Assembly (NCBI GenBank): GCA_003280085.1
Contig: QCFY01000001.1
Coordinates: forward strand, 124,001-188,000
Direction: 5' to 3'
Source: Prochlorococcus sp. AG-363-O06
GTDB lineage: Bacteria > Cyanobacteriota > Cyanobacteriia > PCC-6307 > Cyanobiaceae
DNA length: 64,000 nt
In this document: piece by piece, positions 45,619 to 53,092 of the stretch
Layout of the letters: every line of letters starts with the position of its first letter
Numbering within the stretch: position 1 is the first letter of the stretch
Made by a program: the position numbers and the translations under genes
Notes under the pieces: generated by a model
Databases searched by the model: none
What the model was told of the DNA's origin: nothing
The model's input: the letters and a program-made list of their open reading frames with translations, nothing else

Positions 45619-46458
45619 ATGTCAAGAAAAATCTACTGGTTGAATGGGGAATGGGGATCCGAAAAAGAGTTGAGAATCCCTATATCTGATCGAGGTCTAA
45701 ATCTTGGAGATGGTCTGTTTGAAACAATACTCATACTCAATGGCTATCCACAACTTCTAACAGCCCATTTAGATCGATTATATCGTGGTGCATCCTTACT
45801 TGGCATGGATGCACCACCAAAGAGAAACTATATCCACTCTTTAATTAAAGAAGGTATTCAGCAATTATTTCTGAAGAACTTGAATGGAGCTGTGCGACTA
45901 AATTGGAGTCGCGGTGACAGTAGTCAAAGAGGAATTAGTATTACTCAAGGAAAAAGAAGCGATCAAAATCATCGATTCTGGGTTGAAATGAACTCGTTTG
46001 AGCCAATATTTAATCCTATATCTACAATGATTAGTCAATATGAACAAAGGAATGCATATAGTCGAATCAGTACTTGCAAAACCTTAAGCTATTCACAAGC
46101 AATACAAGCAAGGCATGAAGCTAATTTAGCTGGCTTTGATGATGCCTTATTGCTAAGCACTAAGGGTGAAATGAGTTGTGGAAGCACATCCAATATTTTA
46201 ATAAAGCGAGCCAATCAATGGTTAACACCAAGATTAGAGAGTGGTTGCTTACCAGGCATAATGAGACAGCAAGGGTTAAATGCAGGACTTATTAAAGAAG
46301 CAAAAATCATGCCAGCGCCAGAAGAAAATGACGAATGGCTATTAATAAATAGCCTTAGTTGTCAGCCCATAATCAGATTAAATAAGATGGCATTACAATC
46401 AGTCTCAAACCCATATCAAATTTGGTTCTCCTTGCTAGGCAAGTCGACTATCAATTAA
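45619..46458 (+). CDS. pabC: Aminodeoxychorismate lyase (class IV PLP enzyme)
   Basis: Releases pyruvate from aminodeoxychorismate to give para-aminobenzoate. From the ATG at 45619 it has 279 residues; TTG at 45607 would add four. Motifs are ISDRGLNLGDGLFETI at the N-terminus and the PLP lysine in STCKTLSYSQAIQAR, then GEMSCGSTSNILI. It starts 4 bp after the pabB stop. D-amino-acid or branched-chain aminotransferase function is possible within class IV, but adjacency to pabB supports PabC. The end overlaps convergent cobA by four bases. Confidence 0.85.
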   Translation: MSRKIYWLNGEWGSEKELRIPISDRGLNLGDGLFETILILNGYPQLLTAHLDRLYRGASLLGMDAPPKRNYIHSLIKEGIQQLFLKNLNGAVRLNWSRGDSSQRGISITQGKRSDQNHRFWVEMNSFEPIFNPISTMISQYEQRNAYSRISTCKTLSYSQAIQARHEANLAGFDDALLLSTKGEMSCGSTSNILIKRANQWLTPRLESGCLPGIMRQQGLNAGLIKEAKIMPAPEENDEWLLINSLSCQPIIRLNKMALQSVSNPYQIWFSLLGKSTIN

Positions 46459-47240
46459 AAATCAATTGGCATTGTGACATTCGCAGGTTGAGGGCAACAT
46501 TCTTCGATCTGATACTTAACTACATCTCCAATTATCAAAATTGACGGCGACTGAATTCCTAGTAGCTGTATTTCATTCGACAGCTGACTTAACGTTGAGG
46601 TTATGCATCTTTGACCAATAACTGTACCTTGCTGAATTACTGCGGCTGGAGTTGTCGAGTCCAACCCGCCAATCAACAACTGTTCCGTAATGAACTGAAG
46701 GTTATGCAATCCCATATAAATGACCAAACCATCACTAGCCTTAGCTAGAGCTTGCCAATTTACTGATGGACGGCGTTTATCAATTCCCTCATGACCAGTA
46801 ACGAAAGTAACTGATGAGCCGGCGAGTCGATGTGTCACAGGAATTCCAGCATATGCTGGAACAGCTATACCTGCTGTCACACCTGGGACAACTTCAACAG
46901 CAACTCCCTTGGCAGCCAAATAAGCAGCCTCCTCTGCGCCACGACCAAATACAAAAGGGTCTCCTCCTTTCAATCGAACAACACAAACATGCCTCATAGA
47001 CATCTGATAAAGGATGGTATTTATTTTGGACTGAGGAAAAGAATGATGCCCTCGTCTTTTTCCAACAAATTGAATCTCACAATCATTGGGAACTAAATCC
47101 AAAAACTCCTGAGGCACGAGCGAATCGTAAACAAGGCCTCTACACTGCCTCAAAACACGTTCTGCCTTAATAGTTAGTAAATCAGGGTCTCCTGGTCCAG
47201 CACCAACAAGATAAACACCAGCAAATTGGACGTTTGTCAT
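46455..47240 (-). CDS. cobA: Uroporphyrinogen-III C-methyltransferase
   Basis: SAM-dependent enzyme making precorrin-2, the precursor of siroheme and cobalamin. The 261 residues have VYLVGAGPGDPDLLTIKAERVL, VRLKGGDPFVFGRGAEEA, VVPGVTAGIAVPAYAGIPVTHR and VTGHE. It is divergent from the nirA region, and nitrite reductase needs siroheme. Its own C-terminal dehydrogenase/ferrochelatase domain is absent, so those steps are elsewhere. Start ATG at 47240. Confidence 0.94.
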   Translation of the reverse strand: MTNVQFAGVYLVGAGPGDPDLLTIKAERVLRQCRGLVYDSLVPQEFLDLVPNDCEIQFVGKRRGHHSFPQSKINTILYQMSMRHVCVVRLKGGDPFVFGRGAEEAAYLAAKGVAVEVVPGVTAGIAVPAYAGIPVTHRLAGSSVTFVTGHEGIDKRRPSVNWQALAKASDGLVIYMGLHNLQFITEQLLIGGLDSTTPAAVIQQGTVIGQRCITSTLSQLSNEIQLLGIQSPSILIIGDVVKYQIEECCPQPANVTMPIDF

Positions 47241-47503
47241 GAAATAAGCCTCGAATCTTTTCTATTCAAAACAGATGGCCTTGATGCTCATCAAAGGAAA
47301 TTCGAAAATCTATGAAGTGGATCATGCCTGAAACAGGCAAAATGACAAAAACGAGCTATCTTCTTCAAATCACAACACTAGTCATAGCAAGAAGATAACG
47401 TAGAAGAACAATACAAAAATGAAAGCATTTGTATCAACCGTAACGGATGGAAACTCAGATTAGATGATGAAGTTATGGTTGTACAAACTAAATGTAATTT
47501 AAA

Positions 47504-47701
47504 ATGCAAAACGATTATCTAAGTAAGAAAAACCTTATAACAGAACACTTTCCGCACAGAGCCAGTAGGAAATTAGGTAATAGGAAAATAGTAGACGTCA
47601 AAAGCCCATTCGAGAAAGATCTGCTGGCAATGCAAGAGGTTTGGAAGATGTTGAAGACTGGTGTTATCAGATGGTTTGGAGAAGTCGGAAGACGCTACTA
47701 A
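47504..47701 (+). CDS. Possible 65-residue hypothetical protein upstream of nirA
   Basis: ATG at 47504 to 47701, basic product (HRASRKLGNRKIVDVKSPFEKDLLAMQEVWKMLKTGVIRWFGEVGRRY at the C-terminus, in parts) with an amphipathic helix near SPFEKDLLAMQEVWKML. It is not recognised. If it is not real, the stretch 47241-47878 is a 638-bp gap holding only regulatory sequence. It ends 177 bp before nirA. The flanking DNA carries two similar NtcA-like sequences. Confidence 0.4.
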   Translation: MQNDYLSKKNLITEHFPHRASRKLGNRKIVDVKSPFEKDLLAMQEVWKMLKTGVIRWFGEVGRRY

Positions 47702-47774
47702 AACAATCAGTTTAGATAAAATCAATTTGTATCGATTGCAACCAAATATACAATTTCCACCAGTTTGATAAAAT

Positions 47775-47818
47775 GTATTTTCGGATACTAATTAGATCAA
47801 GATTATATTAGTTAATAT
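47775..47818 (+). promoter_or_regulatory. NtcA-activated promoter of nirA
   Basis: GTA (47775-47777), eight bases, TAC (47786-47788) is an exact match to the NtcA consensus. A TAN3T -10 element, TAATAT (47813-47818), begins 24 bases further on, within the 20-24 spacing of NtcA-activated cyanobacterial promoters. The nirA start is at 47879, leaving a leader of about 55 bases. Confidence 0.75.
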
Positions 47819-47878
47819 ATTCAGTCATCTTCAAAGCTAAGAAATGAGCGTTAGAGCAATCTTTCATTTTTAAAGACT

Positions 47879-49498
47879 ATGGAGAAAGTATTATCTACTG
47901 CTTTGAACCTAAAAGAGCAAAAGCTAAACAAGATAGAGCAAAATAAGGCTGCAAAAGATGGATTAGAGATAGGGAAGCAGATTGAAAGTTTTGCGGATAT
48001 GAGCTGGGAAGATCTTGATAAAACTGATTTAGAACTTCGCTTAAAATGGTATGGTTTATTTTGGAGGCCAAAGACACCAGGTAAATTTATGCTGCGGTTA
48101 AGAGTTCCTAATGGAACTCTTAACTACAAACAAATTGATGTTATAGCTTCAATTGTGGCAAGATATGGTGAAGATGGGAGTTGTGATATTACTACACGTC
48201 AGAATATACAAATTCGTGGTGTTCTTTTAAATGATTTTCCAGAAATTTTAATTCGTTTAGAAGAAGTTGGTATAACAACAATACAATCAGGGTTTGATAA
48301 TCCAAGAAATGTAACTGGTAATCCTTTGGCTGGAATTGATCCAAATGAAATTGTTGATACCAGACCATTTGTTAAAGAGCTTCACAATTTTCTAACAAAT
48401 AATGGGAAAGGTAATCCAGATTTCTCAAATCTACCCAGAAAATGGAATACAGCAGTAGCAGGAGCAAAAGATAATTTCTTATTACATAATGATCTTGTTT
48501 TTCATCCAGTAGAAAATAATAATGTCAAGGGGTTTAGCATTTGGTTAGGAGGAATACTTTCATCTCAACTAAATGAATATGCTATTCCTCTTGATGCCTG
48601 GATTGAAGAAAAGAATGTTTGTAAGATTACAGGCATAATACTGACATTATGGCGTGACCATGGCGAAAGGAATAGGCGACCAAAAGGAAGATTTAGGTTC
48701 TACATAGATGAAATTGGCATTCAAAAGTTTCGAAAACTAATTGAAGAGAAATATGGACCTCTAACTAAAGATCCAGGATCAATTTTTTCCCAAGAGCCAA
48801 GAACATTCTTAGGAATACATCCACAAAAGCAAAAAAGCAAGTTTTTTGCAGGCCTGCACATACCTGTTGGCAGATTGAATGCGGAAGATCTACAAGATAT
48901 CTCTATGGCCAGCCAAACGTATGGCTGTGGAGAAGTTAGGCTTACAGAAGATCAGAATTTAATTATAATTGGTATTCATGATTCGAAAATAAATAACTTT
49001 AAATCTGATCCAATACTAAATAGATTTGCACTGAATCCAAGCAAAATTGCTGCAGGTACTGTTTCTTGCACAGGCAACAGTTACTGTAGTTTTGCTCTAA
49101 CAAATACAAAAGATACTGCTTTAAAGATATCCATGGAATTAGAAAGAGAATTGGATTTAGAAAAAGAACTTAAAATACACTGGACTGGGTGCCCAAATAG
49201 TTGCGGGCAAGCCTACATGGGAGCAATTGGTTTAACCGGAACAAAAGGGAAAGATTCGAATGGCAATATAGTTGAAGCTTATGATATAAGTATTGGTGGA
49301 TCTCAAGGAGTTGTACAAAAAATTGGCGAGTTAAAACATAAATCCATTCCTAAAGGTGAAATAAAAGAAGTCCTCAAAGAAATCTTGATAAGTAATTTTA
49401 ATGCAAAAAAGTTAGGAAGTAAAAGAAATATAGGTGCCAGGTTTTCAATAAGAAGAATTTTACAGAGTCTATTTAGAAAAGGCAGTAACTCTCCTTGA
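47879..49498 (+). CDS. nirA: Ferredoxin-nitrite reductase
   Basis: Reduces nitrite to ammonium with six electrons from ferredoxin, using siroheme and a 4Fe-4S cluster. The 539-residue protein has the siroheme/cluster cysteines Cys397 and Cys403 (CTGNSYC) and Cys438 and Cys442 (CPNSC), and the GEDGSCDITTRQNIQIRG block near the N-terminus. A sulfite reductase would share the cysteines, but the neighbouring FocA and the NtcA site support NirA. The gene heads a rightward group with a 47-residue ORF and focA. Confidence 0.96.
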   Translation: MEKVLSTALNLKEQKLNKIEQNKAAKDGLEIGKQIESFADMSWEDLDKTDLELRLKWYGLFWRPKTPGKFMLRLRVPNGTLNYKQIDVIASIVARYGEDGSCDITTRQNIQIRGVLLNDFPEILIRLEEVGITTIQSGFDNPRNVTGNPLAGIDPNEIVDTRPFVKELHNFLTNNGKGNPDFSNLPRKWNTAVAGAKDNFLLHNDLVFHPVENNNVKGFSIWLGGILSSQLNEYAIPLDAWIEEKNVCKITGIILTLWRDHGERNRRPKGRFRFYIDEIGIQKFRKLIEEKYGPLTKDPGSIFSQEPRTFLGIHPQKQKSKFFAGLHIPVGRLNAEDLQDISMASQTYGCGEVRLTEDQNLIIIGIHDSKINNFKSDPILNRFALNPSKIAAGTVSCTGNSYCSFALTNTKDTALKISMELERELDLEKELKIHWTGCPNSCGQAYMGAIGLTGTKGKDSNGNIVEAYDISIGGSQGVVQKIGELKHKSIPKGEIKEVLKEILISNFNAKKLGSKRNIGARFSIRRILQSLFRKGSNSP

Positions 49499-49717: not shown

Positions 49718-50629
49718 ATGGCTTATTCAGCTTCACAAATGGACTATGTACTTCCGAATGAACTAGTGGATGGAATGATAGCCGCAGGCGGCAAAAAATC
49801 TACCGTGAGTGTAAAAAACTTACTTGTTAGAGGTTTTTATTCAGGTGCAATTCTTGGATTGGCAACCTGTCTTGCTATCACAGTAGGTATTCAATCAGGA
49901 ATGCCATTTCTAGGATCTGTAATTTTTCCATTTGGCTTTGCAAGTATCGTACTTTTTGGTATGGAACTTGTTACCGGTAATTTTGCTTTATTGCCTATGG
50001 CAACATGGGCAGGCAAAAGTTCATGGCGAGCTACATTTAGAAATTGGATGTGGGTTTGGATAGGAAACTTTCTAGGCACAGTTCTTGTAGCACTTTTATT
50101 ATCAATTAGCCTCACTAGCGCAGGAACAGTAGAGCCGTTAGCTGCTGCTGCAGGTGGAAAAGGCTGGGCTGTTGTAGCAGCAAAGATAATTGCTATCAAC
50201 AAAGCAAATGTCCTATTAAAATATGAAGCATTAGGGCGGACTGGATTTTTTCTCGCATTTATTAGAGGAGTAATTGCTAATTGGCTAGTCTGCCTTGGCG
50301 TAACGATGGCACTAGTAAGTAAAAGCGTGCCAGGCAAAATCCTTGCCTGCTGGCTACCTATAACTGCATTCCAAACAATGGGTATGGAGCATATTGTTGT
50401 AAATATGTTTCTGCATACTACTGGGCCTCTACTAGGATCAGGAGTTCCATTAACCAAGATATTCTTTTGGAATTTTCTACCTGTTACATTAGGGAATATC
50501 CTAGGTGGGATGGTGTTTATAGGTATGCTTTTCTATAGTACACATAGAACAAAAATGACGAATGTTCTACCTAGTGTGCATGACGAAAAACTTGAAAGAG
50601 AGCTTGCCGCAGAGCTAGGAGCCCGCTAA
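49718..50629 (+). CDS. focA: Formate/nitrite transporter family protein (nitrite uptake)
   Basis: A 303-residue channel of the FNT family with six membrane spans. Family motifs are GAILGLATCLAIT, MELVTGNFALLP, RGVIANWLVCLGV and a GMEHIVVNMF block. FNT proteins carry formate, nitrite or hydrosulfide; the place after nirA makes nitrite the likely substrate in this organism. It is 34 bp past the 47-residue ORF. Confidence 0.92.
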   Translation: MAYSASQMDYVLPNELVDGMIAAGGKKSTVSVKNLLVRGFYSGAILGLATCLAITVGIQSGMPFLGSVIFPFGFASIVLFGMELVTGNFALLPMATWAGKSSWRATFRNWMWVWIGNFLGTVLVALLLSISLTSAGTVEPLAAAAGGKGWAVVAAKIIAINKANVLLKYEALGRTGFFLAFIRGVIANWLVCLGVTMALVSKSVPGKILACWLPITAFQTMGMEHIVVNMFLHTTGPLLGSGVPLTKIFFWNFLPVTLGNILGGMVFIGMLFYSTHRTKMTNVLPSVHDEKLERELAAELGAR

Positions 50630-50705: not shown

Positions 50706-50999
50706 TTAATTTTTGAATAAGTCCTCATATAGCAAATCAGTTTCAAGCATTGCAATATCATCATCATGCAAAGAGCATCGATACATTAAATTGAGAATTC
50801 TCTCAATATCAAAATCATTATCAACTACTGATTGCCATAATCTGTTTGTCAATTCTTGATCAGCAAGCTCAAATTGAGCATGTACCAATTCTCTTGCAAT
50901 AGAAAAAATCTTCTGTCGATCCTTGCCCAAAGCAAGATCTAGGTGTTTTTTACCAGAATAGCTTGTGGTTTTCTGTCTAGATTGAACCTTGTTAATCAT
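50706..50999 (-). CDS. Hypothetical protein
   Basis: A 97-residue soluble, helical and acidic protein from the ATG at 50999; a GTG three bases upstream is also possible. Contains KIFSIARELVHAQFELADQELTNRLW and ends SLHDDDIAMLETDLLYEDLFKN. No domain is recognised. It faces away from the HEAT gene, with 148 bp between the starts, and converges on focA. It interrupts the nitrite block but is read from the opposite strand. Confidence 0.5.
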   Translation of the reverse strand: MINKVQSRQKTTSYSGKKHLDLALGKDRQKIFSIARELVHAQFELADQELTNRLWQSVVDNDFDIERILNLMYRCSLHDDDIAMLETDLLYEDLFKN

Positions 51000-51147
51000 C
51001 ACCTTTGTGGCATCCTTTATTTTTTTTATACCCTTAGAGCATGATGGTCGCTTTAATTAACAAAAACTCAATGATTGACTTAGAAATTAGTTGTAAAAGT
51101 CAAAATCAATAGACTCTCAAAGCTAGCCCGCAACTAAATAAAATCGT

Positions 51148-51876
51148 ATGGACACAAAAGAGGCAATGATTTGGCAAAAAATAAACAATGTCCGCAAGAC
51201 AAAGCTCAGTCCTGAATGGCTAGGAGAGGCCTACACAAGTAGTGACTCTTTAAGTCTGCGAATAGCAATAGCTGAGCAACTAGGTTTTTTATCTAAAGAA
51301 GGTTGGATCACTCTGAAGCAATTACTTAAGACGCATGGCCTGCAACCAGAACTAATTCAAGCTGCAGGTGCATGTCATCAGCAAGAAGCCAAAAGCTTTC
51401 TACTGCAGACTTTAAAAAAAGAAAATGAAATGAATATAGTCATCCTGGAAGCATTAGCCTGCTGGGGGGCTTCTATATCAGAAGATCTAATTAAAAGAGT
51501 TCTAAGAGAACCAGCGCTAAGATTTCGCCTTGCTGGATTAGAATTGCTGAAATTCAAAGCTCATCAACTTAATGATTCTGATCTACTATGGCTATCAAAA
51601 GAACTCTTAAGTGATATACGGGAACAGGTAGTAATTAAAACTATAAAGATTCTTCAACGTCGAGATTCTATAGACATTTGCAATTCAATTGGCACAGTAG
51701 CCCTGCATGGAACTGACTGTTCAGCAGAGGTTGCGCTAATGGCACTTGGCTCCATTGGATCAATGAACAGCAAAAAAATACTAAAAGAGCTAGCTAACAA
51801 GTTGCCAAAAGGTAGACGGCTAGATCTGACTAAAAAACAAATCCTTCATCAAAGTCAATCATCAAGTACTCTTTAA
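51148..51876 (+). CDS. HEAT-repeat-like protein next to the nitrite genes
   Basis: A 242-residue, all-helical protein with about five degenerate HEAT-type repeats (for example SLRIAIAEQLGFLSKEGWITLKQLL, then IVILEALACWG, then LRFRLAGLELLKF). Related cyanobacterial HEAT proteins include bilin lyases and NblB-like factors, which bind partner proteins or bilins. There is no phycobilisome context here, so the partner is unknown. It lies 127 bp upstream of the TrpD-like gene. Confidence 0.6.
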   Translation: MDTKEAMIWQKINNVRKTKLSPEWLGEAYTSSDSLSLRIAIAEQLGFLSKEGWITLKQLLKTHGLQPELIQAAGACHQQEAKSFLLQTLKKENEMNIVILEALACWGASISEDLIKRVLREPALRFRLAGLELLKFKAHQLNDSDLLWLSKELLSDIREQVVIKTIKILQRRDSIDICNSIGTVALHGTDCSAEVALMALGSIGSMNSKKILKELANKLPKGRRLDLTKKQILHQSQSSSTL

Positions 51877-51968: not shown

Positions 51969-51982
51969 GTAGCAAATGATAC
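51969..51982 (+). promoter_or_regulatory. Exact NtcA-type box before the TrpD-like gene
   Basis: GTA-GCAAATGA-TAC is an exact GTA-N8-TAC. It is centred 28 bases before the ATG at 52004. The TAN3T element TAATCT (51996-52001) starts 13 bases after the box, shorter than the usual 20-24, so it may regulate in an unusual way, use another -10, or be coincidental. Confidence 0.5.
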
Positions 51983-52003: not shown

Positions 52004-53092
52004 ATGACGATAATTTCTATCAATCGCGATCATAAGGTGAGTCAAGGGAAAGAACTCTTCAAGCAATATCTCCGCAAAGTAGGAAGTGGCGAAAAAACTA
52101 GTTGTTCTTTGAGCCGTGAAGAAGCAGCTAATGCACTCAGATTAATATTAGAAGCCAAAGCAACTCCGGCACAAATCGGGGCATTTATGATTGCTCACCG
52201 CATTAAACGCCCAGAGCCACAAGAACTAGCAGGAATGCTTGATACATACTTAAGCCTTGGTCCCAAAATTAAATCAAATAAAAAGAACCACCTACCTTTA
52301 GCCTTTGGCATGCCATTTGATGGAAGAAAACGCACTGCTCCAATATTTCCATTGACAACGCTTGTACTCCTTAGTGCAAACCAACCAATCTTATTAGTGG
52401 GAGGCAAAAGAATGCCAATCAAATTTGGAGTAACTACAGAAGAACTATTTAACGAGCTAGGGCTAAAACTTAAAGGCTTATCAATAAAGGAAGTACAGAC
52501 CGGTTTTGAAAAAAATAATTTTGCTTTTATCTATCAACCGGAACACTTTCCATTAGGAGATACCTTAATTAATTATCGAGATGAAATAGGAAAACGTCCT
52601 CCACTAGCGAGCATGGAGCTTCTTTGGAGTCCACTGAAAGGGGATCATATACTGATAAGCGGTTTTGTACATCCTCCAACAGAAGAAAGAGCAAAAAATA
52701 CTATAAAATTCTTTAAAAATATAAAATTAATATCGGTCAAAGGGCTTGAGGGCAGTATAGATCTTCCAACTAGCCGTCCATGCATTACTGGAAATATGAG
52801 CAATGAAAAATCTAGCCGATTAATTCTTTATCCACGTAAATATCAATTGAATGGCAAGGATATTGAGTTCGGGAATCTGAATGAATGGCGCAAGAATGCT
52901 TTTGATGCTCTCAACAACAAAGGTCCATTTCTTCAGCCCTTAATATGGAACGCAGGAGTTTATCTATGGTTTTCTAAGAATGCAATTAGTCTTCAAGAAG
53001 GATTAGATAAGGCGAAGATATATATTCGTGAAGGTTTAGCGAAGAAAAAGCTTGAAGAATTGATAAGTTGGAGATGCCAATACAATAGTTAA
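52004..53092 (+). CDS. TrpD-like (anthranilate phosphoribosyltransferase family) protein
   Basis: A 362-residue protein of the nucleoside phosphorylase/TrpD fold. An N-terminal helical domain (about 28-85, REEAANALRLILEAKATPAQIGAFMIAHRIK) is followed by the alpha/beta domain. The catalytic PRPP loop GTGGD is replaced by MPFDG and the KHGN motif by GKRMPIKFG, so it is unlikely to be a true TrpD. It resembles the TrpD2/YbiB group in this respect. The start may be the ATG at 52004 or a GTG at 52037. Its position at the end of the nitrite block and the NtcA box upstream suggest nitrogen control. It overlaps the convergent GNAT gene by four bases. Confidence 0.75.
   Translation: MTIISINRDHKVSQGKELFKQYLRKVGSGEKTSCSLSREEAANALRLILEAKATPAQIGAFMIAHRIKRPEPQELAGMLDTYLSLGPKIKSNKKNHLPLAFGMPFDGRKRTAPIFPLTTLVLLSANQPILLVGGKRMPIKFGVTTEELFNELGLKLKGLSIKEVQTGFEKNNFAFIYQPEHFPLGDTLINYRDEIGKRPPLASMELLWSPLKGDHILISGFVHPPTEERAKNTIKFFKNIKLISVKGLEGSIDLPTSRPCITGNMSNEKSSRLILYPRKYQLNGKDIEFGNLNEWRKNAFDALNNKGPFLQPLIWNAGVYLWFSKNAISLQEGLDKAKIYIREGLAKKKLEELISWRCQYNS

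Follow-up and report, generated by a model that had tools for sequence, protein, structure and literature searches.

The TrpD-like gene that closes the nitrite cluster of the DNA analysed here is cnaT, identified from family profile and gene order as the ortholog of the gene that genomes of the Nostoc type carry next to ntcB and the nir operon. Because all three PRPP- and magnesium-binding motifs of TrpD are replaced in its product, with conserved basic residues in their place, CnaT is predicted not to be an anthranilate phosphoribosyltransferase. Nitrite and sulfite reductases use siroheme as their iron cofactor; like sirohydrochlorin, it carries eight carboxylates. Tentatively, and with somewhat less than even confidence, we propose that CnaT is a non-catalytic TrpD2-type fold that binds siroheme or a precursor of it on behalf of the siroheme-dependent reductases. 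The gene itself is unexceptional within an already described family. The window is the whole 64,000-nucleotide stretch of Prochlorococcus sp. AG-363-O06 that was analysed (contig QCFY01000001.1, positions 124,001 to 188,000).

Table 1. Features of the cnaT region, in positions of the window
Feature	Position	Strand	Remark
cobA, uroporphyrinogen-III C-methyltransferase (tetrapyrrole methylase)	46455..47240	-	stays beside cnaT where nirA is absent
NtcA-type site GTATTTTCGGATAC	47775..47788	+	upstream of nirA; match to consensus only
nirA, ferredoxin-nitrite reductase (siroheme enzyme)	47879..49498	+	
focA, formate/nitrite transporter	49718..50629	+	
98-aa ORF, function not assigned by family match	50706..51002	-	recurs next to nirA/focA
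242-aa HEAT/alpha-rep protein	51148..51876	+	travels with nirA; probable nirX; best candidate for NirB counterpart
NtcA-type site GTAGCAAATGATAC	51969..51982	+	21 bp before the cnaT ATG; match to consensus only
cnaT, CnaT-family protein (NF005635/PRK07394)	52004..53092	+	362 aa; TrpD2-type fold without PRPP motifs
MPFDG, residues 103-107	52310..52324	+	at the place of TrpD GTGGD; alignment with TrpD
GKRMPIKFG, residues 134-142	52403..52429	+	at the place of TrpD KHGN; alignment with TrpD

The nitrite cluster around cnaT

An earlier note on this DNA had placed the gene next to nitrite genes, and it does lie in a nitrite cluster together with cobA, nirA, focA and the 242-aa gene. The nitrite genes stand between cobA and cnaT, as they do in related LL and marine Synechococcus-like loci. 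The 98-aa ORF recurs beside nirA/focA in two further loci (L057 and L036), again as an ORF lacking a family match, and may be a small partner in that cassette. In several relatives a CbiX-like gene stands between cobA and nirA (L057:3858-4547(-) and L066:3487-4272(-)) and likely provides the siroheme ferrochelatase step; it is missing from this interval in the window (47240-47879). The NtcA-type site upstream of cnaT was considered as a conserved control element and set aside, because such a site precedes the gene in 8 of 49 orthologs against a background of 5.8%, a weak excess, and none is present in the nirA-less orthologs among the 49 scanned.

Motifs and predicted fold of CnaT

The open reading frame is intact and begins with ATG, and since the NF005635 model begins at residue 16, the GTG at 52037 may be the true start. 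In the alignment with TrpD, the GTGGDG motif pairs with (M)PFDGR and KHGNR with VGGKR...K, so the replacements of GTGGD by MPFDG and of KHGN by GKRMPIKFG described in the earlier note were read correctly; the third motif, the magnesium-binding DE, is also changed, to KGLEGSID. A P(F/Y)DGR and K-G motif takes the place of GTGGD and KHGN in all 49 cyanobacterial orthologs, and residues P104, D106, R108, K140 and G142 are invariant in 49/49, which places the change beyond chance; the motif replacement is thus a signature of the CnaT family and not a peculiarity of the window copy. The window protein carries the family motifs P(F/Y)DGR, K.G, GKRPP, HPPTE and KGLEG, and 39 invariant family columns hold in 47 sequences.

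AlphaFold2 predicts an intact TrpD-type fold for the window protein (pLDDT 92.2, pTM 0.91), in agreement with the earlier expectation, and the Foldseek matches listed for this model are all TrpD (E 1e-17 to 1e-22, TM ~0.78). In overall fold and two-domain layout CnaT therefore resembles TrpD (TIGR01245), whereas all three PRPP/Mg motifs differ. A TrpD fold that lacks the PRPP motif, which is how TrpD2 is defined (PMC9835598), is what alignment, AlphaFold2 and Foldseek show for CnaT. The only Pfam Glycos_transf_3 match in the source draft genome of the window (77% complete) is cnaT itself, and true TrpD is present separately in the CnaT-bearing genomes checked.

Family assignment

Against NCBIfam NF005635 (PRK07394, 'hypothetical protein') the window protein scores 502.6 bits over residues 16-358, with a cut-off of 287, while it falls below the cut-offs of TIGR01245 (TrpD; 69 against 199 bits), NF006005 (YbiB; 82 against 185) and NF006564 (PRK09071; 89 against 257). 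In the tree CnaT forms a clade of its own (100/99), separate from the TrpD clade (100/100) and sister to a gammaproteobacterial family designated X3, with the YbiB and PRK09071 clades apart; TrpD_L204, YbiB_L230, YbiB_L231, X3_L233 and X3_L237 were left out of it as antisense or wrongly extended ORFs. The earlier interpretation as a whole is thereby upheld in one part, a TrpD fold outside the catalytically competent TrpD, with TrpD2 hallmarks and a link to nirA, and fails in another, the identity with NirB discussed below.

The name of the gene follows from synteny and from the literature. A Nostoc PCC 7120-like genome carries the cnaT ortholog next to ntcB, a gene for a 400-aa HEAT-repeat protein, a Rieske gene and nirA, a layout that presumably matches that of all0601 (cnaT) and ntcB in Anabaena. 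One source (PMC9430850) gives all0601 the name cnaT, reports that nir operon expression requires it and describes it as a positive element of nirA-operon expression; it also places cnaT near the nitrate cluster of Synechococcus WH7803. The window gene agrees with all0601, its best-supported ortholog, in its motifs, in its full-length family match and in the company of nirA, NirB and NarM; it differs in that ntcB is a neighbour in Anabaena, whereas the window-type gene has no adjoining ntcB and has cobA as its constant neighbour instead, and in that part of Prochlorococcus keeps the gene without nirA.

CnaT shares with YbiB/TrpD2 (NF006005) the TrpD fold, the loss of GTGGD and KHGN with basic residues in their place, and a (K/R)G.EG motif where TrpD has HG..G.DE, but the two form separate clades, so that CnaT is TrpD2-like and not a YbiB. 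YbiB has highly positive grooves, and two of its conserved arginines, Arg92 and Arg123, bind an acidic peptide (PMC10123104). By alignment, Arg123 corresponds to the invariant K140 of CnaT, and Arg92 to K109, which is variable in the family and stands next to the invariant R108 in the region R108-K109-R110. PRK09071 (NF006564, glycosyl transferase family protein) has TrpD2-type motifs like those of CnaT, with YAGKRRH where CnaT has P(Y/F)DGR, and occurs in nirB-nirD-nasA-cobA or dsr operons.

Co-occurrence with nirA

A link of gene presence to nirA across genomes had been anticipated, and it is found. Sorting of 186 Cyanobacteriia genomes by curated profile cut-offs gives 156 with both CnaT and NirA, 6 with CnaT only, 5 with NirA only and 19 with neither; the two thus agree in 175/186, and NirA is present in 156/162 CnaT genomes. 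The association (Fisher 1.5e-16, or 1.8e-8 without 16 HL Prochlorococcus) is stated in p-values that both ignore relatedness, and both genes are lacking together in at least five different genera besides HL Prochlorococcus. The exceptions are G114, G223, G165 and three Nostocaceae-like genomes (G051, G087, G153), with CnaT and no NirA, and four HL Prochlorococcus and G284, with NirA and no CnaT. Several Nostocaceae-like genomes (L042-L046, L050) encode a second NirA-like protein that reaches ~230-290 bits against NF007125 and may be a precorrin-3B synthase, and some of these genomes keep CnaT though they lack true NirA.

In Prochlorococcus the two genes can be seen to part in both directions. 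LL strains without nirA have cobA and cnaT back to back (L052, L053, L054), and strains with nirA elsewhere also keep them side by side (L055, L056). Between nirA-less strains the dN/dS of cnaT is ~0.22 (0.222/0.986 and 0.270/1.250, with dS near saturation), which points to purifying selection on cnaT in nirA-less LL Prochlorococcus. In HL strains an MFS gene directly follows cobA in the 1.5-kb flanks, so that cnaT is cleanly missing from its usual place; since HL strains carry nirA without CnaT, CnaT is not indispensable for NirA. Among non-marine cyanobacteria the most frequent neighbour of cnaT is the regulator gene ntcB (27 loci), which was not seen at marine picocyanobacterial cnaT loci.

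The neighbouring HEAT-repeat gene

The earlier note had raised the possibility that the window gene is the counterpart of NirB of Synechococcus elongatus, needed for full NirA activity. The adjacency of cnaT to the nirA cluster would fit such a role, but one S. elongatus-like genome (G036) has NirB and CnaT as distinct genes, and this reading, already contradicted, is very improbable. In that genome a 351-aa HEAT protein (L198:7558-8613(-); HEAT_2 match 62 bits) is divergent from nirA and precedes ntcB, a layout matching what we take to be that of NirB (~350 aa, divergent from nirA, with ntcB), while CnaT is encoded at a separate locus, L065, beside narM. There, cnaT and narM, whose product serves nitrate reductase maturation, are divergently arranged (L065:10135-10623(+)).

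Profile comparison connects the 351-aa NirB-type protein with the Nostoc 400-aa HEAT family (98.5%, E 4e-15), and the latter with the family of the 242-aa neighbour of cnaT (hhalign 95.8%, E 8e-9), HEAT repeats being able to align without orthology; reversed-profile controls stay below 1%. The link runs via the 400-aa family, because the single 351-aa sequence gives no significant match when compared directly with the 242-aa family, and the NirB/HEAT profiles give no match to CnaT. AlphaFold2 predicts an all-helical alpha-rep fold for the 242-aa protein (pLDDT 93.5). These comparisons make the 242-aa gene the strongest candidate for a marine picocyanobacterial counterpart of NirB. It is probably also the published nirX, since its position directly beside nirA in HL Prochlorococcus fits the published descriptions of nirX as part of a cassette that includes focA and nirA (PMC6370341) and of nirA and nirX as a single gene cluster group (PMC10119275). 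CnaT is unlikely to be nirX, as HL genomes with nirA lack CnaT and have the 242-aa gene in that place.

Siroheme genes beside other TrpD2-type clades

Beyond cyanobacteria, three TrpD2-type clades (YbiB, PRK09071 and X3) are recurrently found beside siroheme genes. In Catenovulum and at 22 related loci of Alteromonadales type, PRK09071 genes belong to complete or partial nirB-nirD-nasA-cobA clusters. Of 274 evenly sampled gammaproteobacterial genomes, 41 carry PRK09071; in the 40 loci examined from this sample the gene is in dsr operons in 13/40, typically in the order dsrL-dsrJ-dsrO-dsrP-[gene]-CbiA/dsrN-IscA-like, and within 8 kb of cobA/cysG in 8 of 40. A nas linkage of all PRK09071 proteins was rejected, being seen at only 1/40 loci of this sample (L197); two 'nas' matches, L189 (27% identity) and L256 (30%), were not counted, as they are probably other molybdenum enzymes. 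YbiB-family genes stand in nirB-nasA-ybiB-cobA operons in 4/6 cases, with one more beside cobA, and in one order (that of G495) in nas clusters in 9/20, again with one more beside cobA; the nas-cluster genes are scattered over the YbiB clade in the tree. At the X3 loci, cobA/cysG lies within 7 kb in 6/20 and is immediately divergent in 3, the same arrangement as that of cobA and cnaT in Prochlorococcus.

As a control, true TrpD of the same class is beside siroheme genes in 0/14 cases, and the chance of cobA/cysG within plus or minus 7 kb is ~1%, as estimated from genome sizes; neighbour counts that come from related genomes are not independent of one another. The cobA/cysG gene is present in 66/67 genomes with a TrpD2-type gene and in 130/207 others, an association to which genome size contributes, small genomes lacking both. 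The sister family X3 (L250-L269) consists of proteins of ~370 aa with PYNGY..H and HG....PKYG motifs, and the two members scanned both fall below every curated cut-off. In the dsr operons of sulfur oxidisers (L158-L197; e.g. L174, L176) the dsrN position is held by a CbiA-like gene, and a TrpD2-type gene is repeatedly found between this gene and dsrP.

A published neighbourhood network of the superfamily gives only a DNA helicase context for YbiB (PMC5445326). The siroheme link was not found in the literature searched, most subscription papers lying outside its reach, and the siroheme neighbourhoods shared by the four TrpD2-type clades appear to be new.

Proposed role and alternatives

Siroheme is proposed as the ligand because it is the item shared among nirA, nirB, dsrAB, cobA/cysG and dsrN, and we infer the function of CnaT from the same surroundings. 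With the PRPP motifs swapped for basic residues, and with the grooves of YbiB positive, the groove of CnaT could hold a polyanion such as siroheme or sirohydrochlorin. CnaT would assist the nitrite reductase system that depends on siroheme: polyanionic siroheme, or a precursor made by the neighbouring CobA, would be held in the cleft that formerly took PRPP and anthranilate, with R108, R110, K140 and K246 as its lining, and the bound tetrapyrrole would be presented to NirA or to the last siroheme enzymes. The HEAT protein NirB/NirX would serve as the protein-protein partner of NirA, and lowered nir-operon expression in a cnaT mutant would be a consequence of poor nitrite reduction. The position of cobA beside cnaT in nirA-less LL Prochlorococcus and the CbiX-like gene of relatives speak for siroheme handling. 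Against it, HL Prochlorococcus run NirA without CnaT, which makes CnaT dispensable for siroheme loading in those strains, and CnaT tracks NirA and not the other siroheme enzyme, ferredoxin-sulfite reductase.

The adjacency to ntcB in 27 loci favours regulation, and with it a different, possible though less probable, account in which CnaT binds nucleic acid and co-activates transcription of the nir operon, as a YbiB-like TrpD2 acting with NtcB and NtcA, and the siroheme neighbourhoods arise from the regulation of such operons. This would suit the positive effect on nirA expression described in PMC9430850, the nucleic-acid binding of E. coli YbiB (PMC10123104) and the description of the YbiB family as DNA-binding (PMC9835598). 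The binding by YbiB is, however, reported to be seemingly sequence-independent (PMC10123104), marine picocyanobacterial loci keep cnaT where ntcB is not seen, the gene persists under constraint in nirA-less Prochlorococcus, and a cofactor common to nas, dsr and cobA/cysG loci explains them more economically than a single DNA regulator would; siroheme handling is rated above co-activation. The retained cobA-cnaT pair in LL strains without nirA, and in those with nirA elsewhere, could also mean that cnaT has a nitrite-independent core role in Prochlorococcus and owes its place in the nitrite cluster solely to the adjoining cassette, an account made improbable by the strong CnaT/NirA linkage across the class, with its separate joint absences, and by the cluster order shared with marine Synechococcus-like loci. 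Quite improbable, too, is that CnaT has kept glycosyl or phosphoribosyl transferase activity, with a remodelled site and a changed substrate, for example a tetrapyrrole or a nucleotide: the intact predicted fold and the strong conservation of D106, R108, K140, E249 and D253 are compatible with catalysis, but changes affect the PRPP loop, the KHGN loop and the magnesium-binding DE pair alike, and TrpD2 members reportedly lack TrpD and NP-II catalysis (PMC10123104).

Siroheme handling by CnaT may extend, although we consider this rather unlikely, to the whole TrpD2 group (CnaT, YbiB, PRK09071 and X3) as proteins that handle siroheme or precorrin-2, whose basic groove would have evolved for an eight-carboxylate tetrapyrrole and in which the nucleic-acid and acidic-peptide binding of YbiB would be a by-product or derived. 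The result also points to the adjoining HEAT gene as the NirB counterpart in marine picocyanobacteria. If siroheme handling is correct, CnaT and YbiB would gain a function, nitrite and sulfite reductases would gain a cofactor-delivery step, and the retention of cnaT by LL Prochlorococcus without nirA would be explained.
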